Source: a virus
IMG/VR virus record: IMGVR_UViG_3300024344_000060
Coordinates: 1 to 35,267 of that record
Reading direction: 5' to 3' (one strand)
DNA: 35,267 bases
A program made the translations under genes and the position numbers. Positions 1,646 through 25,200 of this stretch are shown here, piece by piece. The notes beneath the pieces were generated by a model. That model was not told the origin of the DNA. It did no database searches and worked only from the letters and a program-made list of their open reading frames with translations. Within the stretch, counting starts at the first letter, position 1, and every line of letters starts with the position of its first letter.

Positions 1646-1897
1646 ATGCCCAAGAAAAAAGAAGAAATTGTTGAAGAAGAATTAGTCATACCAACAGAAC
1701 TCTTGGAAAAAGATCCTGTTGAATTGGCGACTGATGAAGAAGGAATTAAAACTATAATCTCTTATCTTAAAAAGACTAGAGAGAATATCAGAGCGGCAGA
1801 AAAAGCTGGCAAAAGAATCACTGGTAAATCTGCAAGGACTAAGACCCCAGAAAAAGCAGGCGATAATATTCTAGATGTGTTGGTGGATAATGTCTAA
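1646..1897 (+). CDS. Hypothetical protein, 83 aa, charged
   Basis: A highly charged small protein with an acidic N-terminal half (runs of Glu around residues 6-13) and a Lys/Arg-rich C-terminal half. Helix is predicted by eye through the middle. There is no motif I can name. The start ATG 1646 follows GTGAGG (1636-1641) within the end of the micro-protein gene. The last eight bases overlap the next gene. Size and charge pattern would fit a small DNA- or protein-binding regulator, but this is not evidence of one. Confidence 0.7.
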   Translation: MPKKKEEIVEEELVIPTELLEKDPVELATDEEGIKTIISYLKKTRENIRAAEKAGKRITGKSARTKTPEKAGDNILDVLVDNV

Positions 1898-2129
1898 GGA
1901 AAAAGATAAGATAGATTTCATAGGCAAGTACCACCCCCACCCCAAAGAAGCACCTAAGCATTGGCGTATGGCTCGCATGAAAGAACTTCGTGCAGAGGTT
2001 ATGGCTAGACGCTTAGAAAAGAAAAGGCAATGGGGTTTAATGGAACAACACACAAAACAATGGGGGCTTTTAGCTGTGTATCTAATTGCTTTTGTTATAG
2101 TGGTGTTGGGTATGAAGGAGTTAATGTAA
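1890..2129 (+). CDS. Hypothetical protein, 79 aa, C-terminal TM anchor
   Basis: The N-terminal two thirds are basic and helical (Arg, Lys and Glu rich, with several His near residues 14-20). The last 20 residues form a clear hydrophobic segment (LLAVYLIAFVIVVLGM). This gives a tail-anchored topology with a cytosolic basic domain. A longer in-frame start at 1875 exists, but ATG 1890 follows GGTGGAT and is favoured. The stop overlaps the ATG of the nuclease gene (TAATG, 2127-2131). Function unknown. Confidence 0.65.
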   Translation: MSKEKDKIDFIGKYHPHPKEAPKHWRMARMKELRAEVMARRLEKKRQWGLMEQHTKQWGLLAVYLIAFVIVVLGMKELM

Positions 2130-3085
2130 TGGAACAACCAGAAAAATTAAAGAAGTATTTAATTCAAGACGATAAACCTAGACAAGCTATATGGGATTCA
2201 TCTAGCCTGTCTACATTTTCTGCATGCCCTAGAGCATACAATCTTTCCAACCTATTGGGATATAAATTAAAACTCTATGCCCCTGTCACAGGATTTGGAT
2301 CAGCAGTACATGACGGCTTTGAAGTTTTAGATAAAGGCAAACATGAAGGCAAGTCTAAAGATGAGTCAGTAAATAAAGCAGTTACTTTTATTATAAAAGA
2401 ATACGGCAAAGACTTATCACAAGCTGAAGATAAAGCCAGAGGTCTTGAGGCGGCAATAAGGACAGTAGTATGGAGAGCCGAAGAATATTGGGAAGACACT
2501 TTAAAAATTGCGACCATGCCAAATGGTGCCCCCTGTCTAGAGAAAAGGTTTGAAGTTCCTTTTGGAGAGCGAGGTCATAGATTTTCTGGAAGGATAGATA
2601 AGATAGTGGAGTTAAATAATCGTTTGTATTTATGTGATACTAAAACAACAAAGGCTTCGCTTACTGATTTATATTTTAGAAACTTCCAACCAAGCAATCA
2701 AATCTATGCGTACATCTGGGCGGCTAGATTCGTATTGGGTTTAAACATTGCAGGATTTATTATTGATGCTGTACAAACAGGTGTACATTTTTGTAGATTT
2801 AATAGAAGCATATTTAATGTATCAAAAGAATCTATACTAGAATGGTACAACGATGCACAGTATCATATCTCTTTGTCAGATGCATATGCAGATAACGGTT
2901 GGTATCCTGCCAACTTTACATCATGTGGCAACTATGGTGGTTGTAAGTTCAGAGAAGTATGTGGTGAATCACCTGAACACCGTACGATTTTGTTAGAAGA
3001 AGACTTCATTCGTGACCCGCATGCTGACTTGCAAGTGGATAATGTTATTCATGTGCCAGAAAATATATTTAGGAAAAAGAAATGA
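2129..3085 (+). CDS. PD-(D/E)XK nuclease, Cas4/RecB-like with likely Fe-S cluster, 318 aa
   Basis: The order of motifs matches Cas4/AddB/RecB-type nucleases: an N-terminal 'LSTFSACPRAYNL' with Cys33, a His at about 61, a core 'GRIDKI' (Asp157), 'CDTKTT' with Asp170-x-Lys172, and a 'QIYAY' helix near 191. Three more cysteines near the C-terminus (266, 272, 278) with Cys33 could hold a 4Fe-4S cluster, as in Cas4. The expected activity is DNA end resection in phage recombination or repair. The frame extends upstream to 2030, but ATG 2129 has AAGGAG (2115-2120) and overlaps the previous stop. An antisense GGGGGCAC motif lies at 2526-2534. Confidence 0.85.
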   Translation: MEQPEKLKKYLIQDDKPRQAIWDSSSLSTFSACPRAYNLSNLLGYKLKLYAPVTGFGSAVHDGFEVLDKGKHEGKSKDESVNKAVTFIIKEYGKDLSQAEDKARGLEAAIRTVVWRAEEYWEDTLKIATMPNGAPCLEKRFEVPFGERGHRFSGRIDKIVELNNRLYLCDTKTTKASLTDLYFRNFQPSNQIYAYIWAARFVLGLNIAGFIIDAVQTGVHFCRFNRSIFNVSKESILEWYNDAQYHISLSDAYADNGWYPANFTSCGNYGGCKFREVCGESPEHRTILLEEDFIRDPHADLQVDNVIHVPENIFRKKK

Positions 3086-3300
3086 GATTAATAATTTTAC
3101 TATTGTGTTTGTTAAGTTTAAATAATTGCACATATTTTGTTGCTAAAGAAACTGCTAAGATAGTTTTAGATACTGACAAGAACCCAGAGAAAAAAGAAAA
3201 GATACTTAAGAAACAAAACCTAAAGAAAGAAGCTAACAAAAAGAAAGCAAAAGATTTTTATTGTAGTAAGATTGAAGACCCTGTGAAGTGTAATGAGTAG
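3082..3300 (+). CDS. Small putative lipoprotein or secreted protein, 72 aa
   Basis: The start overlaps the nuclease stop (ATGA, 3082-3085). The N-terminus has Arg2, a Leu/Ile-rich core (residues 3-12) and 'SLNNC' at 12-16, like a signal peptide with a weak lipobox; Asn in the -1 position is not canonical. The mature part is Lys-rich and helical with two further Cys (residues 60 and 69) that could pair in the periplasm. Small lipoproteins in phages can act in superinfection exclusion or as outer-membrane spanins; neither can be argued from this sequence alone. Confidence 0.65.
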   Translation: MRLIILLLCLLSLNNCTYFVAKETAKIVLDTDKNPEKKEKILKKQNLKKEANKKKAKDFYCSKIEDPVKCNE

Positions 3301-3409
3301 GGCAGATTTAAAAAGAAAGAATCATAAGGGAAGGAGAAAGATAGGTTCTCGTAAGAGAAAGAATCGCAGACGTATTAGATTAAAATTACGTGTGAGAAAC
3401 AAAAGATAA
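3293..3409 (+). CDS. Arg/Lys-rich peptide, 38 aa
   Basis: A 38-residue frame (ATG 3293 to TAA 3407-3409) overlaps the last eight bases of the preceding gene. It holds 13 Arg and 8 Lys and only one acidic residue, so more than half the peptide is basic. Such composition fits a nucleic-acid-binding or condensing peptide, but no family is recognised. No strong ribosome binding site is seen. It ends a few bases before a new promoter, so it closes the first operon. Similar tiny basic proteins occur at 13995, 16254 and 18331. Confidence 0.5.
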   Translation: MSRADLKRKNHKGRRKIGSRKRKNRRRIRLKLRVRNKR

Positions 3410-3412
3410 TTG

Positions 3413-3447
3413 TTGACAATTATTTTATTTGTGGTAGTATTATAAAT
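3413..3447 (+). promoter_or_regulatory. Sigma-70-type promoter
   Basis: TTGACA at 3413-3418 is followed by a 15-base block, GGTAGTATTATAAAT (3433-3447). The -10 could be TAGTAT (3435-3440, spacer 16) or TATTAT (3438-3443, spacer 19). The same 15-base block recurs exactly after the nrdB promoter TTGACA at 12080. The promoter sits between the Arg/Lys peptide and the Sak4-like gene, whose AGGAG lies at 3451-3455, and should drive the replication and recombination operon. Confidence 0.75.
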
Positions 3448-3461
3448 TATAGGAGATAAGT

Positions 3462-4280
3462 ATGGCAAGTATTAAAAATCATCAATCAACTGATGTTACT
3501 AAACTATTACTCGTAGGAGATAGTGGTTCTGGTAAGACGGCTTCATTGGCTCAGCTCGCAAATGCTGGATACAATTTACGTATCTTGGATTACGATGATG
3601 GGTTAGCTATTCTTCCAGAGTTTCTAACTGCTGATGCAGTAGATAGAGTTAGTTACGTAACGTTGAAAGACCCCATTGGAAAGGCAGATTCTTTTCGAAG
3701 GGGTGTTAATTTAATTTCAAATTGGAAAGACGAAGGAGAAGACTTCGGGCCTGTTAGTAAGTGGACATCTAAAGATGTCTTAGTCATTGACAGTCTAACC
3801 CTAATGGGTGAAGCGGCTTTAAGGGGGGCACTTGTATTTAATAACAAGAAGCCAACCGATCAAGCTAGCCAACCAGAATGGGGCACTGCGGCTCGCGATG
3901 TACAACACATTGTACAATACATAACAGGTACTGAAGCACCATGTAATGTGGTAGTAACAACCCATATGCAATATATGGAAGGCGATTTGGGTGTGTCTAA
4001 AGCATATCCAACTAGTGTCGGTTCAAAGTTATCAACCAAGTTAGGTAGATACTTTAACTGTGTATGCAGAATTGATACTAGAAGTTCTAGCAAAGGAGTT
4101 GAGCGAACTTTGAGAACTGTATCCGATCATCGCATGGATCTAAAAGTAACGGCACCAAAATTAATTGAGCCTAATACTGAATTAGATTTAGCTAAGTTGT
4201 TCGGAGCAATACAAAAGAATGCTCAACAAAAATTATCCAAGAAGGATAATGTAATTAACATCAAGACAGGAGGTAATTAA
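3462..4280 (+). CDS. Sak4-like RecA-fold ATPase (recombination), 272 aa
   Basis: A P-loop NTPase with Walker A 'GDSGSGKT' (residues 19-26), an acidic patch 'DYDDG' (43-47), Walker B 'VLVID' (106-110) and a sensor-like 'VVVTTHMQ' segment. This pattern and length match phage Sak4-type ATPases, which help single-strand annealing proteins in phage recombination. The next gene encodes a putative ssDNA-binding protein, and the Sak4/SSB pairing is common. The start has AGGAG at 3451-3455. The stop overlaps the next ATG (TAATG). A GGGGGGCAC copy lies at 3823-3831 in the sense strand. Confidence 0.8.
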   Translation: MASIKNHQSTDVTKLLLVGDSGSGKTASLAQLANAGYNLRILDYDDGLAILPEFLTADAVDRVSYVTLKDPIGKADSFRRGVNLISNWKDEGEDFGPVSKWTSKDVLVIDSLTLMGEAALRGALVFNNKKPTDQASQPEWGTAARDVQHIVQYITGTEAPCNVVVTTHMQYMEGDLGVSKAYPTSVGSKLSTKLGRYFNCVCRIDTRSSSKGVERTLRTVSDHRMDLKVTAPKLIEPNTELDLAKLFGAIQKNAQQKLSKKDNVINIKTGGN

Positions 4281-4717
4281 TGGCTGATGTAAGTGACTTT
4301 TTATCGATGAATCCAGAGGATATACCAGAGTCTATAACTTTACCAGAGGGTAGTTATGACTTTGTTATTACATCTTATCGTACGGATAAAGTCGGTGAAA
4401 ACCAAAACGAAATTGTGCGTCTTAATTGTAAGGCTAATGCAGTTTTAGAATCTGATATTACGGATGCAGATCTAGAGAACTGTGATGGTACTCGATTAGA
4501 ATTTTGGGCAACCAAGAAAGCACTTAGACAGGGTAACCCTGTGATTTCACTCAAAGCTTTCCTAACAAAATCACTCGGTATGAGTGGTGTTTCGTTCGGG
4601 GAAATGCTTGAACAATCTATTGGACAATCGTTTAGTGGTATCGTTAAACACGAAATGGTTGGACGTAACAAAGATATACTTCAAGCTTCAGTATCAAGAG
4701 TATTGAACAACAAGTAG
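4280..4717 (+). CDS. Putative ssDNA-binding protein (DUF669-like), 145 aa
   Basis: The protein starts 'MADVSDFLSMNPEDIPES', then has a beta-rich stretch (about residues 22-95) that includes 'LPEGSYDFVITSYRT' and a 'LEFWATKKAL' segment, then a short helical part. This layout resembles the DUF669-type phage proteins found beside Sak4 ATPases and thought to bind single-stranded DNA. No acidic tail typical of bacterial SSB is present. AGGAGG (4269-4274) precedes the ATG. The assignment rests on context and general fold and is moderate. Confidence 0.65.
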   Translation: MADVSDFLSMNPEDIPESITLPEGSYDFVITSYRTDKVGENQNEIVRLNCKANAVLESDITDADLENCDGTRLEFWATKKALRQGNPVISLKAFLTKSLGMSGVSFGEMLEQSIGQSFSGIVKHEMVGRNKDILQASVSRVLNNK

Positions 4718-4723
4718 TATCTT

Positions 4724-5797
4724 ATGGGTGAGTATGCAGTTAAGCAAAGAGTTCCTTCTCAATTAAAGAAGGGGGCAAAGATAGCCATAGTCATGGACTA
4801 TCCTAACTCTAATGAAGTTCGCTTGAATAAAATACTTGCAGGAGATTTTATAGTCAATAAGATTTGTAGACTAGCAGGGATACAAATAGAAGATTGTATG
4901 CTCACCCACACTATTCAACTTAAACCTGCACAAGACAACCCCCAAAATTTTTTTCACAAACGTTCTGAATATAAAGCTTTGTGTAAAGATAGTGAGTGGC
5001 GTTCTTCCTATCCGATTACCACCTATGGCTACCTCAAGCAGGAGATGGAGCAAGACTTACAACGTTTATACAATGAACTCAATGAGACAAACCCCAATGT
5101 TATTATAGCAATGGGGGGAGTTTCATTGTGGGCACTCACAGGATTTGATAAGGTAGGTATATACAGAGGTGCTGTTATTCCTTCAACTCAAGAAAGATTG
5201 AAACAGGTTAAGGTAGTACCTTCTTATAATCCTTCTGCCGTAGTTAGAAACTATGGCTTCAGAGCACACGTTTATTCTGACTTTAAAAAAGCTAAACGTG
5301 AATCAGAATTTTCACATATTAATTATACAACAAGAGAGCTATGGATTGAGCCTCAGTTAGACGACATGTATGCATTTGAATCAGAATACATACATAGAAA
5401 TAATGCTGAGGCACCATTGGCTTTCGATATTGAAACAGCGGGAGGGCAGATAACGTGTATTGGATTTGCCCCCTCTTTAAATCATGCAATCGTGGTCCCA
5501 TTTAAGTACAACTATTGGTCACGTGATGAAGAAGACAAAGCGTGGGCATGGGTTAAAGACTTATTGGAAGATACGAACTTAGTTAAAGTTGCACAGAATC
5601 AAACGTATGACATATCATGGTTAGCTTACAAACAGAATATAAAAGTAAGTGGACTAGTACATGATACAATGCATGCACAACATTCACTGCAGCCAGAAAT
5701 GGAAAAAGGTTTAGGTTTTCTCGGCTCCATATACACTAATGAAAGTGCATGGAAAACATTAGCCAAGTTCTCTAAGAGCACAAAAGCTGATGAGTAG
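4724..5797 (+). CDS. UDG-like domain fused to 3'-5' exonuclease domain (N-terminal half of split Pol A), 357 aa
   Basis: Residues 1-190 resemble the family 4 uracil-DNA glycosylase fold once called 'SPO1 DNA polymerase-related', with 'MDYPNSNEV' (24-32) in place of the catalytic GExPG motif and 'NPSAVVR' (169-175) in place of HPS. The catalytic motif is degenerate, so activity is doubtful. Residues 230-345 form a DEDD exonuclease: Exo I 'FDIET' (Asp235, Glu237), Exo II 'NQTYD' (Asn292, Asp296) and 'YTNESAWK' (337-344). The protein stops before Exo III. The missing motif and the polymerase domain lie 530 bases downstream in a separate gene (6324-7844). The stop overlaps the GTG start of the next gene (TAGTG). 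No strong ribosome binding site precedes ATG 4724. Confidence 0.8.
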   Translation: MGEYAVKQRVPSQLKKGAKIAIVMDYPNSNEVRLNKILAGDFIVNKICRLAGIQIEDCMLTHTIQLKPAQDNPQNFFHKRSEYKALCKDSEWRSSYPITTYGYLKQEMEQDLQRLYNELNETNPNVIIAMGGVSLWALTGFDKVGIYRGAVIPSTQERLKQVKVVPSYNPSAVVRNYGFRAHVYSDFKKAKRESEFSHINYTTRELWIEPQLDDMYAFESEYIHRNNAEAPLAFDIETAGGQITCIGFAPSLNHAIVVPFKYNYWSRDEEDKAWAWVKDLLEDTNLVKVAQNQTYDISWLAYKQNIKVSGLVHDTMHAQHSLQPEMEKGLGFLGSIYTNESAWKTLAKFSKSTKADE

Positions 5798-6162
5798 TGA
5801 AGCGACCACATTTTTTTACAGCAAAAGCTGTTGACGATAGGTGGGGTGAGTTAGATGCTCACGTAAGATTATGGCGAGCAACATTAGATCAACTGTTGCA
5901 AGACCTCATATACGTGGGAAGTGGTAAGGAAGATAAGAAAGCTTTTATTACTGCATGGGAATGGTTTGAAAACAACCATGAAGATTTTAAAATGGTGTGT
6001 GACTTAGCTGATCTAGATCATCAAAGAACACGAAAGGAATTGAAAGATTTAATAGCGAGGGTAAATGGTAATAGACATAAACGACAATTTAAAAATAGCC
6101 GCAAAGCTTTTGAGTGGCAAAAGGGAACAGGAGTACGGAAACAAAAAGATAAACCACGATAA
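5797..6162 (+). CDS. Hypothetical protein between the polymerase halves, 121 aa
   Basis: It starts at GTG 5797 inside the TAGTG junction with the exonuclease gene. The protein is helical and charged, with Trp-rich patches (around residues 16, 26, 51, 53 and 109) and a strongly basic C-terminus (residues 90-121, many Lys and Arg). I recognise no nuclease, GIY-YIG or HNH motif, so it does not look like a homing endonuclease. It overlaps the next gene by about 98 bases in another frame. Function unknown; its place between two parts of the polymerase suggests a replication role only by position. Confidence 0.65.
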   Translation: MKRPHFFTAKAVDDRWGELDAHVRLWRATLDQLLQDLIYVGSGKEDKKAFITAWEWFENNHEDFKMVCDLADLDHQRTRKELKDLIARVNGNRHKRQFKNSRKAFEWQKGTGVRKQKDKPR

Positions 6163-6355
6163 CATTGCTGTGTTGTGGTCAGCTTATTTGGGTACAAAGT
6201 TAAGTGCTCATGACGTTGCTATATTAATGTTGTTATTAAAAATAGCAAGAACAAAATCTGGGAATCCTACCGAAGATACATACATAGATATGGTGGGGTA
6301 TTCAGCTATTGCAGGAGAATTGTGTGAAGATAGTAAAGAACACGGAAATAAATAA
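6065..6355 (+). CDS. DUF6378-like phage protein, 96 aa
   Basis: The pattern 'EYGNKKINHDNIAVLWSAYLG' (around residues 23-43, with Tyr-Gly and Leu-Trp-Ser-Ala-Tyr-Leu-Gly), a 'LLKIARTKSG' helix and 'IDMVGYSAIAGE' near the C-terminus match a small helical family (DUF6378, as I recall it) common in phages. Its all-alpha layout recalls MazG/dUTPase-type folds, but activity is unproven. GAGGG (6057-6061) precedes ATG 6065. It overlaps the gene before by 98 bases and the polymerase gene after by 32 bases. Confidence 0.7.
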   Translation: MVIDINDNLKIAAKLLSGKREQEYGNKKINHDNIAVLWSAYLGTKLSAHDVAILMLLLKIARTKSGNPTEDTYIDMVGYSAIAGELCEDSKEHGNK

Positions 6356-7844
6356 ACACGATCTAAATAAAGATCAAATACTTTGGACGTATTGTGCATT
6401 AGATTGTACATTGACCCATGAGATATGGTCTAGGATACATAAAGAGTTTGATCCTATAACTAAAAGAGTTTACTTATTTGAATTAGATAGTTTAAAACCT
6501 GCAATGGAAATGATGTTGCGAGGTTTAAAAGTTGATGAAGTTAAAGTAAAAGAAAAGAAAGAAGTCTTACGTGCTCGTAGATTAAAACTAGAACGTATGC
6601 TTAATCTTTTTGCACAAGGTGTATGGGGTAAAGATTTAAATCACAATAGCCCTGTGCAACTTAAGAAAATTTTATATGAAGACTTAGGCCTACCACCTGT
6701 TGTGTCTTACAAAGGGGGCAAGTCAAAGATATCTACTGACCGTGCAGCTTTGGAGCAGCTTGGGGAATTTTATCCAAGAGCAAAACCATTCGCACATACC
6801 ATACTTGCACTACGTGACATAACTAAACAGCTTTCTGTTTTAGATTCTAAACGTGATAAGGATGGCAGGATTAGATGTTCATATAATGTAGCAGGTACAG
6901 AGACAGGACGTTGGTCTTCATCAGAAAGTCCTTGGAGAACAGGAACTAATTTACAAAATGTTACAAAGGAATTACGTTCAGTATTTATTCCAGATGATGG
7001 CATGGTTATGTTCTATGCAGATTTAGAACAAGCAGAGTCGAGAGTTACTGCTTATGTTGCAGGTGATGAAGGTTATATAAATGCATGTGAGAGCACAGAC
7101 TTACACACTGAAGTAGTTAAAATGGTTTGGCCCAACTTGGGTTGGTCTGATGATCCTGCGCAAAACAGGGAGCTTGCAAACAAACCTTATTACTTACACT
7201 TTACATATCGTGACATGTGTAAACGAGCAGGTCATGGTACTAACTATGGAATGTCAGCACATGCATTAGCTAAACATTTAAAAATAAAAGTTTCACATGC
7301 GACAAGATTTCAGTTGCTTTATTACGGAGGTGTGGTACCATTAGCTTCTTTAGAACGTTGGCACCAACAAGATAGAGAAGGAGGCTTTCAAGAATTGATA
7401 GACACAGGAGAGATAATAGGTAAGCTAGTAAAAATACAAGGAGCATTCCCTGGCATACGTGCTTGGCACAACGAAGTATCGGGTGAGTTAAAACAAACAG
7501 GTTGTTTAACTACACCTTTAGGTAGGCGCCGACAATTCTGGGATAGATTAAATGATAACTCTACATTGAGACAGGCTATAGCTTATGTTCCACAATCTAC
7601 TATTGGGGATTTATTAAACATGGGTTTATACAATGTATGGAAAAGTGTTAGAGAGATAGAGATACTTGGCCAAGTGCATGATGCTATCTTGGGTCAATGT
7701 CCTATTGAAAGAGTGGATGAATTAATGCCTAAAGTTTTAGAGCAAATGAACAACCCTTTAGAAGTTAAGGGAAGACAAATGATTATCCCTTCCTCAGTTG
7801 AGGTGGGTCATACATGGAAGGATATGGAAACATGGAAGAAGTAA
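6324..7844 (+). CDS. Family A DNA polymerase domain (C-terminal half of split Pol A), 506 aa
   Basis: Replicative polymerase domain. The first 30 residues carry exonuclease motif III, 'WTYCALD' (Tyr23, Asp27), so the exonuclease active site must be completed by two polypeptides. The polymerase motifs are intact: 'TGRWSS' (194-199), motif A 'DLEQAE' (Asp233, Glu238), motif B 'RDMCKRAGHGTNYG' (Arg296, Lys300, Tyr308) and motif C 'VHDA' (His452, Asp453). The residue matching E. coli Phe762 is His304. The start is GTG 6324 with AGGAGA (6313-6318) five bases before it; an in-frame TTG at 6309 is less likely. It overlaps the preceding small gene. A sense AGGGGGCAA copy is at 6713-6721. Confidence 0.9.
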   Translation: MKIVKNTEINKHDLNKDQILWTYCALDCTLTHEIWSRIHKEFDPITKRVYLFELDSLKPAMEMMLRGLKVDEVKVKEKKEVLRARRLKLERMLNLFAQGVWGKDLNHNSPVQLKKILYEDLGLPPVVSYKGGKSKISTDRAALEQLGEFYPRAKPFAHTILALRDITKQLSVLDSKRDKDGRIRCSYNVAGTETGRWSSSESPWRTGTNLQNVTKELRSVFIPDDGMVMFYADLEQAESRVTAYVAGDEGYINACESTDLHTEVVKMVWPNLGWSDDPAQNRELANKPYYLHFTYRDMCKRAGHGTNYGMSAHALAKHLKIKVSHATRFQLLYYGGVVPLASLERWHQQDREGGFQELIDTGEIIGKLVKIQGAFPGIRAWHNEVSGELKQTGCLTTPLGRRRQFWDRLNDNSTLRQAIAYVPQSTIGDLLNMGLYNVWKSVREIEILGQVHDAILGQCPIERVDELMPKVLEQMNNPLEVKGRQMIIPSSVEVGHTWKDMETWKK

Positions 7845-8038
7845 AAAGATTATATATAGAAGACGGAAAGATACTAGTAAAAGAGGGGGAATTTTCTACC
7901 ATATGTACTGAGGCAGAGATAGAAGGACCTTCATTAATAAGAAACAAAGACGGTAATGTATGGATTGAGACTACATCTACAGTAGTTAAGCTTGTCCATA
8001 TACCTAAAGAAAATGTCAAGTTTCTAGATGAAAAATAA
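7832..8038 (+). CDS. Hypothetical protein, 68 aa
   Basis: A small acidic, beta-prone protein with no recognised motif, lying between the polymerase and the primase-helicase. It could start at ATG 7814 (74 aa) or ATG 7832; I prefer 7832, which overlaps the polymerase end by 13 bases and has AGGAT and GGA sequences upstream. Its stop overlaps the next ATG (TAATG at 8036-8040). The constant position between replication genes hints at an accessory factor, but nothing in the sequence proves it. Confidence 0.65.
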   Translation: MEEVKRLYIEDGKILVKEGEFSTICTEAEIEGPSLIRNKDGNVWIETTSTVVKLVHIPKENVKFLDEK

Positions 8039-9297
8039 TGTCAAGAAATTATACAGATTACATGGAGGCATGTGTTGATGCCATTAAGAATAGTCCTATC
8101 CCTAAACCTTTTGCGAGGTGGACTGCCTTATCCTCAATAGCAGGGGCACTCGGCCGAAGGGTCTGGTTTCCTATGCCTAACTATAACATTGGTTCTAATT
8201 TATTTGTAATACTTATTGCAAGTCCTGGTCGTAATAAATCAGTAAGTTTAATATTACCTTTCTCTAAAGTATTCAATAGACTTACTACACCTGTTGGTAC
8301 AACAGAAGATGATTCTAATTTCAACTCTGGTCTTGACCAATACGGTTTAAGAAACTATCCTTTATATCTTATTCAAGATAGAATCACTCCAGAAAAATTA
8401 GCAGTTGACATGACTAAAGTAACACGTTTAGATTTGCGTTTAAGTAATCCACGTCAAGAACAATTCTTTGATTCATCTATGACTTTAGTTACATCAGAGT
8501 TTGGTACGTTCATGGGCAGGAGTGAAAGATATTTGCAAATGTTTTTAACTGATATGTGGGATGCCAAAGATCAGTACAGCCACAAAACAAAAACAGCAGG
8601 TGAATATATTATTGAAGGCCCTTGTTTAAATTGGGTTGCTTGTGCAACACCAGAACAATTTGTTGACAACTTACCAGAGGATGCAAAGTCTCAAGGATTA
8701 TTATCAAGAATCATTCCTGTGTTTTATGAAGGAGAAAGAATACCACAAGACTTAACACAAAAAGTTATTAGTGATAACACAATAGATAATTTAAGAAATG
8801 ATTTATCTCATGTAGCTAAAATGTATGGGCCAATGACATTTGATGATGACGCATTTGAAGGAGCTAATGAAGATATCTATTACAACTTACAACCAGAACC
8901 AACTGATCCTCATCTATCTGAGTATTGTCAAAGAAGAGTATCACACTTTCTAAAAATAGCTATGTCAGTTTCAGCTTCACGTAGATCAACTAGAAAAATT
9001 ATGAAAGAAGATTGGGAAACAACTAAAGAGATTATGTTTGAGATGGAAAAGAATATGCCTAAAGCATTAGAAGGTTTTGGCATGGCACGTACAGGTAGAA
9101 TAGCACACGACATGGGAGTATGGTTGGATGCTACGATGGCTCTTAACAAGCGACAACATGTCACACTACGTGCATTTAAACGTGAGTTACTTCGAAAGAT
9201 TCCGAATCCAGGTGAGCTGGATCAAACAATCAGAGCCATGCAAGACTCTGGTTATATAAAAATGGAAGGTAATTTAGTCTTTGCTTGTAAAAAGTAA
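8038..9297 (+). CDS. DUF3987-like primase-helicase ATPase, 419 aa
   Basis: An AAA/RecA-like protein of the DUF3987 type, often annotated as a phage replicative helicase or primase-helicase. Residues 25-45 (ARWTALSSIAGALGRRVWF) are a family signature. The P-loop is atypical: 'ASPGRNKSVS' (61-70) instead of GxxGxGKS, as in this family. A Walker B-like 'LVTSEFGTFMG' and an arginine-finger-like 'SQGLLSRIIPVFYE' follow. The C-terminal 100 residues look like a winged helix. No zinc-binding primase domain is present. It closes the replication operon; a new promoter begins at its stop codon. Confidence 0.75.
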   Translation: MSRNYTDYMEACVDAIKNSPIPKPFARWTALSSIAGALGRRVWFPMPNYNIGSNLFVILIASPGRNKSVSLILPFSKVFNRLTTPVGTTEDDSNFNSGLDQYGLRNYPLYLIQDRITPEKLAVDMTKVTRLDLRLSNPRQEQFFDSSMTLVTSEFGTFMGRSERYLQMFLTDMWDAKDQYSHKTKTAGEYIIEGPCLNWVACATPEQFVDNLPEDAKSQGLLSRIIPVFYEGERIPQDLTQKVISDNTIDNLRNDLSHVAKMYGPMTFDDDAFEGANEDIYYNLQPEPTDPHLSEYCQRRVSHFLKIAMSVSASRRSTRKIMKEDWETTKEIMFEMEKNMPKALEGFGMARTGRIAHDMGVWLDATMALNKRQHVTLRAFKRELLRKIPNPGELDQTIRAMQDSGYIKMEGNLVFACKK

Positions 9298-9356: not shown

Positions 9357-11108
9357 ATGAAATTAAACATTGATATAACTAAGGATACTCTACTCTCTAA
9401 AAACGCTGTGGATATCTTAAGGGATAGATACATGTTACCAAAAGAGGAGACACCACAAGAAGCATTCGCCAGAGCATGCATGGCATTTGCAGATAACAAA
9501 GCTCATGCAGAAAGATTGTATAAATATGTTTCAAATCTTTGGTTTATGTTTGCTTCTCCGCTTTTGTCAAATGGAGGAACAGATAGGGGTCTGCCTATCA
9601 GTTGCTTTTTAAATTATGTGCCCGATAGTAGAGAAGGACTAGCGGCACACTATACTGAGAACATCTGGTTATCTAGTATGGGGGGCGGAATAGGTGGTTA
9701 TTGGGGTCATATTCGCTCACAGGGACAGTCAACTAGCAAAGGTAATAAGACGACAGGGGTTATTCCATTTATGCACGTGGTGGACTCTCAAATGGTAGCC
9801 TTTAATCAAGGCGCTACTAGACGTGGGTCGTATGCTAGTTACATGGATGTATCCCACCCAGAAATTATAGAGTTTATAGAGATGAGAAAGCCTGCTGGTG
9901 GAGACGTCAACAGAAAGAATCTTAATCTTCATCATGCTGTTATTACTCCAGACAAATTCATGAGAGCAGTAGAAGATGATAAAGATTGGGATCTTATAGA
10001 CCCTAACAGTAAAGAGAAAGTAAAGACAGTTAAAGCTAGGAGTATTTGGATAAAGATACTAGAGGCTAGAGTTGCTACAGGAGAACCTTATATAATGTTT
10101 ATTGATACAGTTAATAAGCATTTACCTAAAGAGTTAAAAGACAAAGGATTAAAAGTACATCACTCTAATCTTTGTAGTGAAATTACTTTACCCACTAATG
10201 AAGATAGAACAGCGGTGTGTTGTTTATCTAGTTTAAATTTAGAATACTTTGATGAGTGGTCTAAAGATGAAATGTTTATTGAGGACATCATGCGCATGCT
10301 TGACAATACGTTAAGTGTATTTATTAAAGATGCCCCTCTGACCATGAGTAAAGCTGTTAACAGCGCTAAGTCTGAACGTTCAATAGGCTTAGGTACTATG
10401 GGATTTCATTCTTACTTACAACGTAGTGGTATTGCATTACAAAGTCCTATGTCCATGGGACCTAACATTAAAATATTTAAACACATTAAAAAGAAATGTG
10501 ATGCGGCGAATTTCTTATTAGGAAAAGAAAGAGGAGAAGCACCAGACCTTAAAGGAACTGGAAAAAGATTCTCACATATGACTGCCATAGCTCCTAATGC
10601 AAGCAGTTCAATTATATGTGGCAACACTTCTCCAAGTATAGAACCATTGAGAGCAAATGCATTTACTCAAAAAACTTTAAGCGGTTCATTTTTAATTAAA
10701 AATAAATACCTTGAAAAGTTATTAGAAGAGAAAGGAAAGAATACTAAAGATGTTTGGAAAAGTATTATTGCTAGCAGAGGAAGTGTTGACGCGCTCACTT
10801 TCCTTACGGCACAAGAGAAAAATGTATTTAAGACGGCCATCGAGATTGATCAAGCGTGGTTGGTTGACCTGGCTGCGGAACGTCAAAAATATATTTGCCA
10901 AGCGCAAAGTTTAAACTTATTCTTCCCACCTGATGTTAACGTGAGAAGATTAAACAATGTACATAAACGTGCATGGCATAAAGGATTAAAAACTTTATAC
11001 TATTGCAGAAGTGAAGCTATTAAAAGAGCAGAGAACATATCATTAAAAGTAGAAAGGAAAGTGAGACAAGATAACGATGAAGAAGATTGTATCATGTGTC
11101 AAGCATAG
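9357..11108 (+). CDS. nrdA: Class I ribonucleotide reductase large subunit, 583 aa
   Basis: Reduces ribonucleotides to deoxyribonucleotides with NrdB, supplying dNTPs for phage replication. Key residues are visible: Cys83 ('ISCF', matching E. coli Cys225), 'NLCSE' (Asn271, Cys273, Glu275: the catalytic Cys439/Glu441 pair), Cys288 ('AVCC', partner cysteine), the radical-transfer Tyr pair in 'LYYCRSE', and a C-terminal 'CIMC' redox pair. At 583 residues it is about 180 shorter than E. coli NrdA; the first catalytic Cys comes at residue 83, so the N-terminal ATP-cone is absent and overall dATP inhibition should be lost. nrdB follows after nine bases. Confidence 0.95.
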   Translation: MKLNIDITKDTLLSKNAVDILRDRYMLPKEETPQEAFARACMAFADNKAHAERLYKYVSNLWFMFASPLLSNGGTDRGLPISCFLNYVPDSREGLAAHYTENIWLSSMGGGIGGYWGHIRSQGQSTSKGNKTTGVIPFMHVVDSQMVAFNQGATRRGSYASYMDVSHPEIIEFIEMRKPAGGDVNRKNLNLHHAVITPDKFMRAVEDDKDWDLIDPNSKEKVKTVKARSIWIKILEARVATGEPYIMFIDTVNKHLPKELKDKGLKVHHSNLCSEITLPTNEDRTAVCCLSSLNLEYFDEWSKDEMFIEDIMRMLDNTLSVFIKDAPLTMSKAVNSAKSERSIGLGTMGFHSYLQRSGIALQSPMSMGPNIKIFKHIKKKCDAANFLLGKERGEAPDLKGTGKRFSHMTAIAPNASSSIICGNTSPSIEPLRANAFTQKTLSGSFLIKNKYLEKLLEEKGKNTKDVWKSIIASRGSVDALTFLTAQEKNVFKTAIEIDQAWLVDLAAERQKYICQAQSLNLFFPPDVNVRRLNNVHKRAWHKGLKTLYYCRSEAIKRAENISLKVERKVRQDNDEEDCIMCQA

Positions 11109-11117
11109 AGGTAGATT

Positions 11118-12077
11118 ATGAGTATATTTAAAGAGAGAGATTATTACAAACCATTCACATATCCATGGGCTTTTGAAGCCTATGACATGCAACAAAAAAT
11201 GCATTGGCTTCCAAGTGAAGTACCACTTCATGAAGATGTTAATGATTGGAATAATAGAATGGATGAAGGCGAAAAGAATTTAGTAAAACAAATATTAACT
11301 TTCTTTACACAAGGTGATGTAGACATAGCACAAGCTTACATGGATGTATATGTTCCAATGTTTAAACCACCAGAGATACGTATGATGTTATCGTCTATAG
11401 CTACAAGTGAAGCCAACCATGCCCACAGCTATTCATTATTAAATGATACAATAGGTATGGATGATAGAGAGTACAAAGCTTTCCAAGAAATAAAAGCTAT
11501 GAATGATAAGCATGAGTATCTATGGAAAAGCAAAGGGGGCACAGAGGAAGAACAAATGATAAGAGACATGGCGGTGTTCTCTGCATTTGGTGAAGGCCTT
11601 CAATTGTTTGCTAGCTTTGTTATGCTTCTAAACTTTACAAGGTTTGGTAAGATGAAAGGCATGGGACAAATTGTCGCATGGTCTATAAGAGATGAGTCAC
11701 ATCATGTGGAAAGCATGATTAAATTATTCCATTGTTTATTAGATGAGAAACCTAAGGTTTGGAATGACAATTTTAAAAAGAGTTTATATGAGATATGTCG
11801 TGACATGGTAATGTTAGAAGATAAGTTTATTGATTTGGCTTTTGCTATGGGTCCTGTTCAAGGACTGACAGCAGATGAAGTCAAACAATATATACGACAT
11901 ATAGCAGATAGAAGACTACTACAGCTAGGGTTAAAACCTAACTATGGGGTAAAAGATAATCCACTCGAATGGGTCGATTGGATAGTTAACGGAGTAGAAC
12001 ATACCAACTTTTTTGAGAACAGAGCTACTGAATATGCTAAAGGTGCCATGACTGGTACTTGGGCTGATGCATTTTAA
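11118..12077 (+). CDS. nrdB: Class I ribonucleotide reductase small subunit, 319 aa
   Basis: Holds the di-iron/tyrosyl radical cofactor used by NrdA. All expected ligands are present with exact E. coli spacing: Asp67, Glu98 and His101 ('SEANH'), Glu159 ('FGEG'), Glu193 and His196 ('DESHH'). The radical tyrosine is Tyr105 ('HAHSY'), so this is a conventional Tyr-radical enzyme rather than a Mn/Fe Tyr-less type. The ribosome binding site is AGAGG (11105-11109). A sense AGGGGGCAC motif (11534-11542) lies within the gene. The stop is two bases before the next promoter. Confidence 0.95.
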   Translation: MSIFKERDYYKPFTYPWAFEAYDMQQKMHWLPSEVPLHEDVNDWNNRMDEGEKNLVKQILTFFTQGDVDIAQAYMDVYVPMFKPPEIRMMLSSIATSEANHAHSYSLLNDTIGMDDREYKAFQEIKAMNDKHEYLWKSKGGTEEEQMIRDMAVFSAFGEGLQLFASFVMLLNFTRFGKMKGMGQIVAWSIRDESHHVESMIKLFHCLLDEKPKVWNDNFKKSLYEICRDMVMLEDKFIDLAFAMGPVQGLTADEVKQYIRHIADRRLLQLGLKPNYGVKDNPLEWVDWIVNGVEHTNFFENRATEYAKGAMTGTWADAF

Positions 12078-14927: not shown

Positions 14928-15398
14928 ATGGCTGGATTAGATATGTTAATATCCTTTGTGGATAGAATAACTGGGGGTGGTAAGAATGATACCTTCAAAG
15001 AAGATCTTGCCATGTCTGAAAGTTCAAACAAGTATGATGTTGTAAATGATAAAGGTTACATGGGAAAGTATCAGTTTGGAGATGCTCGTTTAGAAGATTT
15101 TAAAAATGCAAATAAAGATTATAAGTTTACTAAGAAAGAATTTTTAAATGACCCAAACTTACAAGAGGATGTATTCTCTTGGCATGTTGAAGATATAAAT
15201 AGTTATATTGATAGCCGTGGGTTAGATAAATATATTGGAACAGAAATCAATGGTGTTACAATAACCAGAGATGGATTAATTGCAGGTGCTCACCTTGGTG
15301 GCAAAACTGGATTAAAAAATTTTCTGAGTACTGGGAAAGATAAAGAAGATAGTTATGGTACTAGTATATCAGAATACATAACGAAGTTTAGTAGTTAG
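14928..15398 (+). CDS. Lysozyme-like endolysin / transglycosylase, 156 aa
   Basis: Residues 24-50, with 'AMSESSNKYDVVNDKGYMGKYQFG', have the pattern of phage lysozyme/lytic transglycosylase-like enzymes: a likely catalytic Glu in 'SES', then 'GYMGKYQFG'. The C-terminal 'GLIAGAHLGGKTGLKNFL' is also typical of this group. It should cleave peptidoglycan at lysis. ATG 14928 is chosen because the upstream part of the frame overlaps the Cys-rich gene; the frame is open back to 14814 and that extension encodes a hydrophobic stretch (see findings). The holin-like gene follows after 13 bases. Confidence 0.75.
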   Translation: MAGLDMLISFVDRITGGGKNDTFKEDLAMSESSNKYDVVNDKGYMGKYQFGDARLEDFKNANKDYKFTKKEFLNDPNLQEDVFSWHVEDINSYIDSRGLDKYIGTEINGVTITRDGLIAGAHLGGKTGLKNFLSTGKDKEDSYGTSISEYITKFSS

Positions 15399-19221: not shown

Positions 19222-22200
19222 TTAATCTAATCCTAAAGCTTCTCTTATTAATTTTTTCTCAGCGTAAAGTTTCTTATTAGTCTGACTTATTCTAAATTCT
19301 GGATGCACAGCTTTCATAGCTTCTTGATATAATCTAGATAGATCAGGAATAAAAACCAATTGTGGTGGTTTGTTAGAGTTATAATCCATAATGTCTGCCA
19401 TGATATCTTCTAACTCTTGTTGTCCTTCATTAACCATATCTGCATTATACCTCATACCACCAATTATTATGCTTCTATAAGCATTTGATATCTGAGCATT
19501 CTTTCTTTGTCTAAATAAATTCATTCGTTTATCTAGTTTACCTTCTTGCCATATAGCTTCTCTTTGTTTAGCAATAGAAGCTGGAGCAAACCCAAACGCT
19601 TGCATCATTATTTCCCAACCTTTTATATCTTGAGTCAACACTTGTCCATAACTTGTGCTAGCAAATCCATTTCCATATGAAGAATACTCTACAGCTTTTA
19701 ACATATTACGTATTGCAGTAGGCATTGATTGTTGAAATGCTTTGCCCCAATTTTGTTCTCTTACACCTTGTTCTATAAGACCTTTTGCTGCATCAACATA
19801 AACAGAACCTGGCGCTCCTAAGAACTCTTCAGCTCTAGCACCTGTTGGTATGCCCATTATATTTAATCCTGCTCTTACTTGTTGAGACCAAGGTAATACA
19901 CCAAAGCCAACTCTTCGTTGAACATCCCACCCAAGAGTAGAATTTATTAAACCATTTTCCACAGCATTAATTAAGCCAGGTCCCCAACCTGCTTCATATA
20001 ACATATTACGAAACTCTGTTCTTACATCAGAGTCTAAACCTGTTATCATCTTCTTAGTTAAATCATATAAATCTTCTGCGTCTTCACCACCAGGTAATCC
20101 CATAAGACCACCAGTCACAAGCATCATTAACATTATTCTAGCAAATGCTCTTCGGCCCATTCTATTTTGTAGTTTTGTTTTTGCTGGGTTAGCTACACCT
20201 ATAGTGAATCCGCCGCCAGCTTTTCTCTTTAATACAGGTGGGTTTAGTAAACGATACAGCAGTCCTACCATTTGTGTCATGTAAGTCATGAATAGTGCAG
20301 GTAATGAACCTAAGCCCCTACCTATTTGTTGTCTATTTTCTTTACCATATATACCAAATGTTTCCTCGGTCATGAATCTTGCCAATGCTTCTGGAGATCT
20401 TCCATATTGCGCCATAGTTAGTTGATAATCCATATCATCACCATACAAAAGATCTGCTTTATCTAATACTTTAGGATCATTCTTTGCTAAATTGTATGTA
20501 GCTATAAAAGCTGTAATACGAGACGCTGCCTCAAATGTATTGAATGCTCCACCTACTATAACACTCTCCACCCATCTAAATGTTTTGTCTCTTTCTCTTT
20601 GGCTACCTACTAATGAACCGCCCATACCAGGAGTTATACCTGCTTCTTGTAAAGCTTGTCCTTGTTTAATTGTTCCATCTGCTATGGCACGGAACAGTGC
20701 CTCTTTAATATCACCTTCTGGTAATTTATTAAAATCAATAAATGCATCTTGGTATTGTCTTTGTCCTGCTACGCCATCTACTACCATACTAGAAGCGTGT
20801 GCAAAAGCTTTACGCAATTCATTTACAGTAGATACTGTGCCCCCTAGTTGTGATAGTATCGGTCCTGTAAATTGTACTAAACTCATAGTTTGTAAGACAG
20901 CTGATGATAAGTTTCCACCAAGATACCACCAAAATCCTATACGTCTCATGTTAGCAAATTCTTGTACAGGGTCATCTACATATGTATCATATTTTTCTGC
21001 GAATCTTAATAGATTAGTGTCACCTTTATCCATTGCCCATTTTCTAGTTTCATCGTAATATTTATTTTTATCTTTCATGTATCTATTACGAGATAATTGA
21101 TTACTGGCTACCATTATGTATTGCATAATAGCACGAGGAAAATCTGCACTATAACCTGGGACACCTTCAGCTCCAACTGATTTATCTCTTGCTATGAAAA
21201 ATGAATTAAGTCCCATTGTATCTTTATCTAATCCTTTTTTCGCAAGTACTTCTCTTAGTTCTTTTAATATTAATTGATAACTTTGTGCATTAGTATCAGA
21301 CATAAATTGTGCGAGGTATTCTAAATTTTTAAATCCTTTACCCTCTTGTATCATTTGTCTCAATCTGTCTATGGTCATTTCAGAGGGGGCACTTATATCG
21401 GCTTCAGGATACTTAACCCTAAGACCAGGCAATGCCGCCTGAGCTTCTCCCATAGTTTCAAACTGTTGATACCAAAGTAATTTTTTAGACTCTTCACCCT
21501 TCTCATCTGTTTCAAGAGCAGATACACTAATGTAGAATTTTCCAAAACGCATCAATGGTACATACATTTTTTTATTTAATGTTTCTACTTGTCCTGCTTG
21601 ACTTAATAAAGCATTAAGACCTGCGTCTTTATTACCTAATAAAGTTTGTATTTGTTCTAGAACATCTCCTTGTATTGATGTTCTCATAATCATAATGTTA
21701 GATAAGCTATCTACAATAAATTTAATCTGTGTATAATCTAATTGTTCTAATAAGTTAGCTATCTCTTGTTGGTCCATTCCCTCAAAGTTATATAATGTTT
21801 TTAGCTCAGGCATTTGCGGGAAAAATCTTTTCAATAAGTTTATACCCATTATTAAATTAGGTACATGTTCTCTAGCAATCTCTGCCTTTAGCCATTCTTT
21901 GTTTATATCTTGGAATGTTTTGTGCACGTCAATAAAAGCTTGTGCAACGTCACCTTCTAGTACAACAACCTCACCTTTTTTAACGGGTAAGTCTGCGGCT
22001 CCTCCATCTTCAGGAGCAATAAATGTTAAACGCCCATTAGGATCTACTTGCATATTCATAGCATCTGTCATCTGTGCAATAATCATAGCTTTAGCTAGTG
22101 CTTCTTTCATTGCATCATCTTGAATAACATTCATGTAATTACGTCTTAAGTAATCTGTAAACTGTTGCTGTAATGATCTGTTCTTGCGAGTCATATTTAT

Positions 22201-25200
22201 TACAGTATTGTACAAATAAGTAAATGGTGTATTTCTTTTTGCTATTGATCTAGCATGCGCCATAATTTTAGCAAACAAAGACATTTTATCTGGTGTAGCT
22301 TTTCTTCCTGCAGCAGCTAATGGCTCTGATGTTGCTGCCATATCTAAATCTTTAATTGCTTTTCTTATTTCTGCATTTCTTTCTTGTCTATTCTTTTCGA
22401 ATTGTGGGTCATAACTTGCATCACCAAATTGTATAGAAGGGTTCGGCTGATTAAGATTTATGTATTCATTTGTATATTGGTAGTCACCGCCTGGTGTTGT
22501 TTCGAATGATTCATATAAGGCAGCGATAGCTTGCTTTGCTGGTATACTACTAGATTCAAATTTTATTCTTTCTCTAACATTAAAAGGATCTCTTGTTTCA
22601 TCTAATGCCCCAGCATCTGTCGTAGGATCGTCTCTAAATATCTCTCTATCCATGCCTTTCAATATACCTTCAGTTAAGAAAGTAGTTATTAGTTTCTTGT
22701 TAGTAGGATCTGTTCTTTTATTATTTTGGGTAAGTTGCCCCAATCTTTCATAAGCAAGATTACTATCTGTAGGATCATATATAATCCTAATTGCTACAGG
22801 CAATGTAGATTGTGTACCATTTATACCTTGAGCAGTGAATACTCTATGTCTTCCTTCCTGCCCTACTACTTTTCCTGTTTTACCATCCGCTGACAATTCT
22901 ATAATAAGATCAGGCACTCCAAATACTCTACCATCACGTGCAGCTTGTGTCATAAATTTCACAGCTTTTTTATCATAAGTTGTATCTTGCAAAGGCATGG
23001 TTAAATCTAAGTATTGTTGAGGAGACATATAAGTATACATACTATTTTCAGGTCCTACAGCTTGAGTCAAACCTATCTCCTCTCCTACCATATTCTCCCT
23101 TTCATAGTCAAAACTAAAGGTAAAAAAATTCCTGTTATTGTATGTAGTTTTTACTGTCTTATCGTTGAATCGATTAGTAAATCTAATTTTATTTTTATCT
23201 AAAGAAAACTTCATTTGAATGGTAGTATCTGTATCTATTTTTTCACCAAGCATGAACTCAATAAATTTCTTTTGTTGATTACGTAAAGTTGGATCGCTGT
23301 AGTCTGCAAGGTTACGGCTAAGAACTACGTCACCTCTAGGATTTTTATAAGTCATTTCTGCTAAACTTTTAGCTGTATTCATTTCAGCAATTTGACCTTC
23401 TACTTTCATTCTTTGTCCAACCAAGCCTGCTTCTATTTTATTAAATATACTTTCAGGAGTCTCAAAGCCTGCCCCTCTTAGTCCGCTAGCAAGAGCCATT
23501 AAGAATGCTTTTATTCTTACAAATATTTTTTTAATTTGTGCAGTTAAAGTGTTATCTATATTAGCTCCTTTTTTTAAGTGTGCTAATTTTCTTTGTAATG
23601 CAAAGTTAGCGAATGCATAGGCAATACCTTCTTCTTCATACATCTGTTGTTCTGTTTGATTAAAAGTATTGTTGGTCCAAGTATACTTATCTTTAATACC
23701 ATACTCGTTTATCCATTGATCTCTTGCAGCCTTAGTTAATATGTTCCATTCTTTGTCTGTAAACAATCCTAAATTTTTTAATGCATGAATAGCTTCATGA
23801 TTAAGACTTTGAAATGCTGTCATCATTTGTGCAGCACTAAATTCCATATCTGTTTTTCTTAACGCAGGATTAGTATAATTGTTACGTGCTATTCTTTCAT
23901 TTATATTTTGATACATGTCCATATTAAATGCGATCTGTATCAATCCATATGTTAAATTAGGAAACTCTGGTACAGTTAATGTTGGTGCGCCAGTTCTTTT
24001 TATTGCAGTTCTTATATATTCAGGAGCAGTAAATCCCCCACCTATTCCTTCTTGTGGCCTACCTCCTGACATTACATTGTTAACAATAGCTAAGTCAGTT
24101 TGAGATAATCCCAATTGATCTAACCACTCTCTCATTAACTCAGTAATCAGTGGCAAATTATCATCTACTTCAGTAAGTATGCCTGGTTGGCTAGATCCTG
24201 TTGCAGATGATTTATTAAATCTAACAAACTCTCCGTAAATTTTTCTACGTGTAACTTGTGTCTCTGTTTGATTTAATTGTTTTCTTAATTTGTTTATTTG
24301 TTTTTTAACTTTAGTTAAAGTTACAGTTTCCCAACTCATAGCTCCTCTTATAGGAGTATCTAATATAGGTTCTATACTTAATGATTGTAGTAATTTATTT
24401 ATATCTTTTCTTGCTCTAAATGTTTGAGTTATTAATGATTTGTATGCTACTTCTTCAGCAACTAAAGGTGCTCGTACATTAGGATCAGCCGCTCTATACT
24501 TAGAGTCAGCTCGTATTTTTTCTAGTTGTCTTGCCGCTGCCCTTAATGCTTGCGGAGTGAATACAGGAAACAATCTAAATGTTTCTTTGATATCTCCCAT
24601 TTGCTTATCAGCTCTAACAATATGTTCACCTGTATTATCAAAATCTTTTAACTCTTGTCTTGCTTCTTTATACGCGTCACTTAATATTCCAAATTGTGCA
24701 CGTGCTGCATTAACCAAACCAACTTTAGTTTGTCTTAGTTCTTTATATTGTTGTAAGTATTTTCTTTTAATTCCAGTTGAATCTAATGCATCAGCTAATT
24801 GCAACACCATACGCATACGTTCGTTTGAAGGTATTTCGTATAAGTCTTCAAAGGTAAACTCTTCCTTTAATAATAAAGGATGATATCTCATAACAGGTAC
24901 AATTTTATCACCTGTTATACTTGCTTTTTGCGCCGCTGTTAAAGGCTCTGTTGTTCTAACAGTCTCACCAACTTGTATTTTTTCTGTGACAGGCCCCCCT
25001 AGTATAGGTGCCAATGTACTAAATGTTCTATTGTTTTTTATTATATCATTTATAATACGTCTGCCTTCAGTTATTTTCTTTTTGCCTGGAACAGGAGTTA
25101 TATTTTCAATTTGTCTTTGGATATACTCTTGTCCTCTTGGGCCAGATAAATAACCTAATTGCTGTAAACGATTACGATCTTCTTCTGGTAATTGATTTTG

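Follow-up and report, generated by a model that had tools for sequence, protein, structure and literature searches.

A phage family-A DNA polymerase cut through its proofreading site and kept as two genes in a deep and diverse clade

Introduction

NrdA of Aeh1 provides a known example of a two-subunit enzyme reassembled from split halves, and split polymerases are known in phages as well. In Pseudomonas phage PaP3/LUZ24 and Escherichia phage phiEco32, the exonuclease gene is separate from the gene of the family-A polymerase, and other genes lie between them (PMC3517423; genome annotations). The exonuclease subunit of PaP3 and phiEco32 (175–185 aa) carries all three motifs, motif III being FEYCLQD or FTYCEQD, and hence the exonuclease site in these phages is whole; the cut is at the domain boundary, and there is no UDG domain. 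In the T4-like Aeromonas phages 25 and 44RR, the family-B polymerase gp43 is split, with a homing endonuclease gene situated at the phage 25 cut, and gp43A and gp43B of phage 25 co-purify and are polymerase-active (PMC2988022). By analogy, a replicative polymerase divided in two can evidently assemble and function, although the enzyme considered here belongs to family A. In Methylophilales phages MEP401 and MEP402, a marine PolA is encoded by two genes that flank a small one (PMC10580990); there, the polymerase domain itself is cut, downstream of motif III, and the polymerase lineage is distant from the one described below. A PolA annotated in two pieces, with a 184-aa gene between them, is also found in Vibrio phage VS-ABTNL-3 (locus L298, 2839–5973); judging by the annotation, the cut apparently lies within the polymerase domain, similarly to MEP401.

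Here, we describe a divided PolA in a virus record from IMG/VR (IMGVR_UViG_3300024344_000060); the whole analysed stretch of 35,267 nucleotides is referred to as the window. Similarly to PaP3/LUZ24 and phiEco32, polymerase and exonuclease are in separate genes, but the cut passes inside the exonuclease domain and leaves motif III to the polymerase chain, hence the interpretation of the locus as an exonuclease subunit of the PaP3/phiEco32 type was rejected. The same cut, in the same loop and with two small ORFs between the halves, is present in the isolated freshwater Caulobacter phage Kuura, whose genes in the cut differ from those of the window and whose polymerase is ~37–44% identical to the window one. 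In the Kuura annotation the first chain is hypothetical, and the part of PMC9959647 that treats its polymerase leaves the cut unremarked. Annotation pipelines miss this arrangement, and the Kuura polymerase appears there as one without proofreading. A literature search, with most subscription journals outside its range, yielded no description of a PolA cut between motifs II and III; while split phage polymerases are known, a cut through the active site and the age of such a cut appear to be undescribed.

Results

Gene layout

The exonuclease half (357 aa) occupies positions 4724–5797 of the plus strand, from an ATG start to a TAG stop. It comprises a UDG-like domain (approximately residues 2–201; PF03167, 6.6e-6) and the start of a DnaQ-type 3'-5' exonuclease domain (approximately residues 220–357; PF01612, 3.1e-11). 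The polymerase half (506 aa; 6324–7844, plus strand; PF00476, 7.7e-45) has its own GTG start and, possessing motifs A, B and C in addition to the Pfam match, is of family A (Pol I type). Two genes on the same strand, below called cargo, are situated between the halves: a 121-aa gene with no Pfam match (5797–6162), whose GTG start overlaps the stop codon of the exonuclease half, and a 96-aa DUF6378 gene (6065–6355; PF19905, 4.6e-27). The exonuclease half, the cargo genes and the polymerase half are in different frames. The ribosome-binding site of the polymerase half, AGGAGA (6313–6318, plus strand), lies within the second cargo gene, five bases from the GTG at 6324, and similar sites are seen in most marine relatives. 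No second match to these polymerase or exonuclease families was found elsewhere in the record.

The first-pass annotation had described PolA as two genes with two others between them, one of these DUF6378-like, and a GTG start five bases from AGGAGA; the ORFs with their coordinates, the sequence upstream of the start and the Pfam match all agree with this description. It had also let motif III begin, together with the polymerase half, at 6324. The ORF indeed starts there, but motif III starts at 6390.

Catalytic motifs and the position of the cut

Two of the three exonuclease motifs, motif I, DIE (D235 and E237; 5426–5434), and motif II, NQTYD (N292 and D296; 5597–5611), are on chain 1, the product of the exonuclease half. 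Motif III, YCALD (Y23 and D27; 6390–6404), is on the polymerase chain, in a helix predicted at residues 16–41. The same chain carries the motif A aspartate D233 (7020–7022), present in 77 of 77 split loci, and, by residue conservation, K300 and Y308 of motif B (7221–7247) and the HD of motif C (H452 and D453; 7677–7682); all these features are on the plus strand.

Alignment with the intact relatives (Microcystis phage Mel-JY34, MW202489, a Desulfofustis phage and Tiera) places the cut in the loop that joins motifs II and III; it falls within the exonuclease domain and not between the exonuclease and polymerase domains, where it had been supposed to lie. In the intact Mel-JY34 gene, the match to the exonuclease half ends at 14983 and the match to the polymerase half starts at 14990; as the matches are nearly gapless across the cut, the two halves make up one PolA with nothing lost. 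When the intact MW202489 is aligned with E. coli Klenow, its motif II corresponds to GQNLKYD, and its motif III, to YAAED. The comparison with intact phage PolA, proposed in the first-pass annotation as a check, has thus shown that the halves together cover one polymerase, and the claim that the exonuclease site would need both chains is borne out insofar as the motif positions indicate, chain 1 carrying motifs I and II, and chain 2, motif III.

The same annotation had compared the cut with an insertion in the same place in the polymerase of phage HMO-2011. This marine phage PolA does have extra sequence downstream of the exonuclease motifs, but it is a single chain, and its DnaJ insert (residues 294–326, with CXXCXGXG motifs at 294 and 319) lies ~140 residues past motif III (YLSAD, 152–156). 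Nothing is inserted between motifs II and III of the HMO-2011 polymerase, and no UDG domain was found in it. An assignment of the window to the HMO-2011 type was rejected, as there are two chains and CXXCXGXG is absent from both translations.

Survey, conservation and selection

The order comprising the exonuclease half, the 121-aa gene, the DUF6378 gene and the polymerase half was observed in ~100 IMG/VR contigs assembled independently of one another, whose polymerase identity ranges from 63 to 100%. Wider scans and an HMM survey yielded 93 non-redundant related loci, 77 split and 16 intact. All split loci but one (76 of 77) are cut at the motif II–III loop. The exception, L139 (MW202554), was considered as a split at the same loop and rejected, as its cut follows motif III; PolA in this locus (1727–4364) is split where the exonuclease and polymerase domains meet, and the spacer is 151 nt long. 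Cellular genomes gave only three matches; two are close and one is distant, and all come from metagenome-assembled genomes. These are probably phage fragments, and hence no host was inferred from them.

The motif I aspartate and glutamate are present in all rows having residues at these positions (75 of the 77 split loci, the other two being truncated), and the asparagine and aspartate of motif II, in all 77 split and all 16 intact loci. The tyrosine and aspartate of motif III are kept in every split locus cut at the motif II–III loop. One of them, L252, was a candidate for the loss of motif III, rejected when the motif was found in a second frame, probably due to an indel in the contig. Overall, polymerase motifs A, B and C and exonuclease motifs I–III are invariant wherever the contigs cover them. 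In six pairs, dN/dS (Nei–Gojobori) was 0.06–0.11 for the exonuclease half and 0.06–0.12 for the polymerase half; thus, both halves are under strong purifying selection.

As the window is a metagenomic virus record, one might suspect a sequencing or assembly artefact, or else a decaying gene. The arrangement, however, recurs in ~100 independent contigs and in one isolated phage, Caulobacter phage Kuura, dN/dS is ~0.06–0.12, and all catalytic residues are kept, which leaves such an explanation hardly conceivable. The split arrangement is real, and is due neither to chance nor to misassembly.

The conservation pattern also bears on the possibility that the halves work apart, the polymerase lacking proofreading and the exonuclease/UDG protein having a different function or none at all. 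There are phage PolA lineages from which the exonuclease has been lost (divPolA1, PMC11348598), and chain 1 could conceivably act by itself as a UDG. But the polymerase chain invariably keeps the tyrosine and aspartate of motif III, and the exonuclease chain, from which motif III is absent, is likewise invariant in motifs I and II. Since such two-chain invariance is hard to explain otherwise, a shared site is favoured, and we regard separate functioning of the halves as unlikely.

Genes in the cut

The spacing between the halves varies across loci from −4 nt to ~1.7 kb. Homologs of the first cargo gene are found in the same place in 34 non-redundant loci (dN/dS 0.05–0.27), and in ~10 marine loci DUF3310 replaces DUF6378 in the same slot. 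Relatives of DUF3310 (L058, 5726–5977) and DUF6378 (window, 6065–6355) have the PHROGs labels nucleotide kinase or phosphofructokinase. Other cargo includes an RNase H-like gene (L204), HNH_3 endonucleases (L215, L221, L237, L252), endonuclease VII (L218, L234), a LAGLIDADG-like endonuclease (L211; weak in Pfam, phrog_5046, 1.6e-10), another type of HNH (L230; phrog_99, 5.5e-12), and, in further loci, genes of no known function. Finally, there is no gap at all in 11 non-redundant loci, where the halves either abut or overlap, by 0–4 nt (ATGA, GTGA, TAATG or TAG-ATG).

The cargo/no-cargo state requires 11 changes on the tree. As cargo differs between lineages and is absent in some, it is not the cause of the split; judging by its distribution, the split persisted while the cargo turned over, and the cargo is replaceable.

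These junctions allowed us to consider the ways in which a single chain might still be produced. A self-splicing intron or other RNA joining that removes positions 5797–6323 would restore one chain in the window; other polymerase genes of phages are known to contain group I introns, and an intron was suspected for MEP401 by the authors of PMC10580990. However, in the window and 12 relatives we observed neither an Rfam match nor a recognisable group I or group II intron core between the halves, the DNA separating the halves in the window is coding throughout and evolves under purifying selection, and the new termini and start sites are conserved. Moreover, where the halves abut or overlap, as in the 11 loci above, there is nothing to splice and no room for an intron. 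Hence, RNA joining is quite improbable. A split intein was rejected as well, as only ~10–20 residues per side are outside the homologous region, which is too short for intein halves.

Alternatively, programmed frameshifting or stop readthrough could give a fused product, the split forms being by-products. One locus (L233), with both halves in one frame and one TAG between them, is in line with this; but in the window more than 500 nt separate the stop codon of the exonuclease half from the start of the polymerase half, and in 10 of the 11 abutting loci the polymerase is in another frame. A slippery heptamer was seen at none of the 11 abutting junctions. As the frames differ and slippery sites are lacking at these junctions, recoding is disfavoured, and its probability seems very small.

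Tree and origin of the split

In the maximum-likelihood tree of 88 polymerase rows, 72 split rows group together in a single clade (SH-aLRT 98), and the intact forms are in the sister group. The split clade has three deep sub-clades, with ~1 change per site to each: a Kuura-like one, a marine one that includes the window, and a third, mostly terrestrial or freshwater, if the habitat is judged by relatives. A single origin of the main split clade is well supported by the tree but not certain, as long branches join the deep groups.

An independent split in the same loop is found inside the intact sister group, in locus L283 (3543–5370). Its exonuclease frame ends with TGA and is followed by an HNH endonuclease gene (phrog_3377, 8.3e-28); the polymerase frame has a GTG start preceded by GGAGG, inside the end of the HNH gene. 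The insert, ~430 nt, is nearly all coding and has no Rfam intron match. It resembles the insertion of a homing-endonuclease gene and nothing else, and gives the best picture available of the way in which the older split could have originated. Given this recent case and the homing endonucleases found as cargo elsewhere, the main split, too, probably has a homing origin: the gene would have been cut once in the ancestor of the clade, probably by a homing endonuclease gene that inserted itself there, and many genes would since have come and gone at the junction.

In the window (2030–9297), the genes follow in the order PD-(D/E)XK exonuclease, Sak4-like protein, polymerase and DUF3987 primase. This order is common to the intact relative vir526, hence the split arose in place, within a conserved replication operon.

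Chain termini and predicted structures

The exonuclease half ends in a conserved C-terminal tail followed by the stop codon, WKTLAKFSKSTKADE* (5750–5797, plus strand), which is the same across the marine clade. The tail of chain 1 in the terrestrial/freshwater clade is WKSERK..TIKRDE*, with variants WK..ER..TIKRDE*/TIGRDK*, and the start of chain 2, M(A)(K/R)II(R/K)(T/N)..., is conserved across lineages. These conserved termini may be part of the chain interface, which is a guess.

The AlphaFold model of chain 1 alone is good up to motif II, while residues 317–357 have pLDDT under 50 and yet are conserved; the shallow alignment (33 sequences) may partly explain the low confidence at this C-terminus. 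The polymerase chain is modelled with pLDDT 88.5, its best matches being the large fragments of Bst and Taq Pol I, and motif III is in the first long helix of the model (residues 16–41). Residues 2–201 of the chain 1 model match UdgX/family-4 UDG with Z up to 19.9. All PDB matches listed for this model are UDG structures, so that the fold comparison bears on the UDG-like part. In the window, the UDG-like domain (4724–5330) has NPS (residues 169–171) for the usual HPS, and the GEGPG-type loop is degenerate; in Kuura, HPS is kept. The window domain may bind uracil rather than excise it.

Discussion

Phages of this clade likely possess an ancient and stable two-subunit family-A polymerase, whose proofreading site is completed in trans. 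The ORFs, the cut, the clade, the invariant residues and the variable cargo were read from the sequences, and from these we infer the assembly, the proofreading activity and the homing origin. Chain 1, which carries the UDG-like domain together with the first two exonuclease motifs, and chain 2, with the motif III helix and the polymerase, would be translated separately from one operon and then assemble into one enzyme. The N-terminal helix of the polymerase chain would dock on chain 1 and complete the exonuclease fold, contributing the tyrosine and aspartate of motif III in trans and tying proofreading to the polymerase. With the catalytic residues spread over two chains, the chains must come together if proofreading is to occur.

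A more speculative version, which we put forward only tentatively, is that the exonuclease chain is a dissociable subunit for proofreading and UDG-like template reading, that the ratio of the chains sets fidelity and strand displacement, and that homing endonucleases and other genes have long used the conserved junction in this essential gene as a landing site. If the subunit were dissociable, the polymerase would work either alone or with the exonuclease chain.

The split is real, ancient and conserved; what is unusual is that it passes through the proofreading site and has been kept in a deep and diverse clade. A divided proofreading site is a natural fragment-complementation experiment, long kept in phages of sea, lake and soil, and it raises a testable question, whether polymerase proofreading can be attached, detached or tuned as a subunit. 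The locus also shows an essential gene being cut, staying cut and becoming a landing site for mobile genes.

Two other regions of the window may be mentioned. Ribonucleotide reductase genes are located at 9357–12077, with the small subunit (PF00268, 3e-73) and, beside it, a 583-aa ORF that is a putative large subunit. On the minus strand, a single ORF of 2599 aa (19222–27021) takes up more than one fifth of the record.
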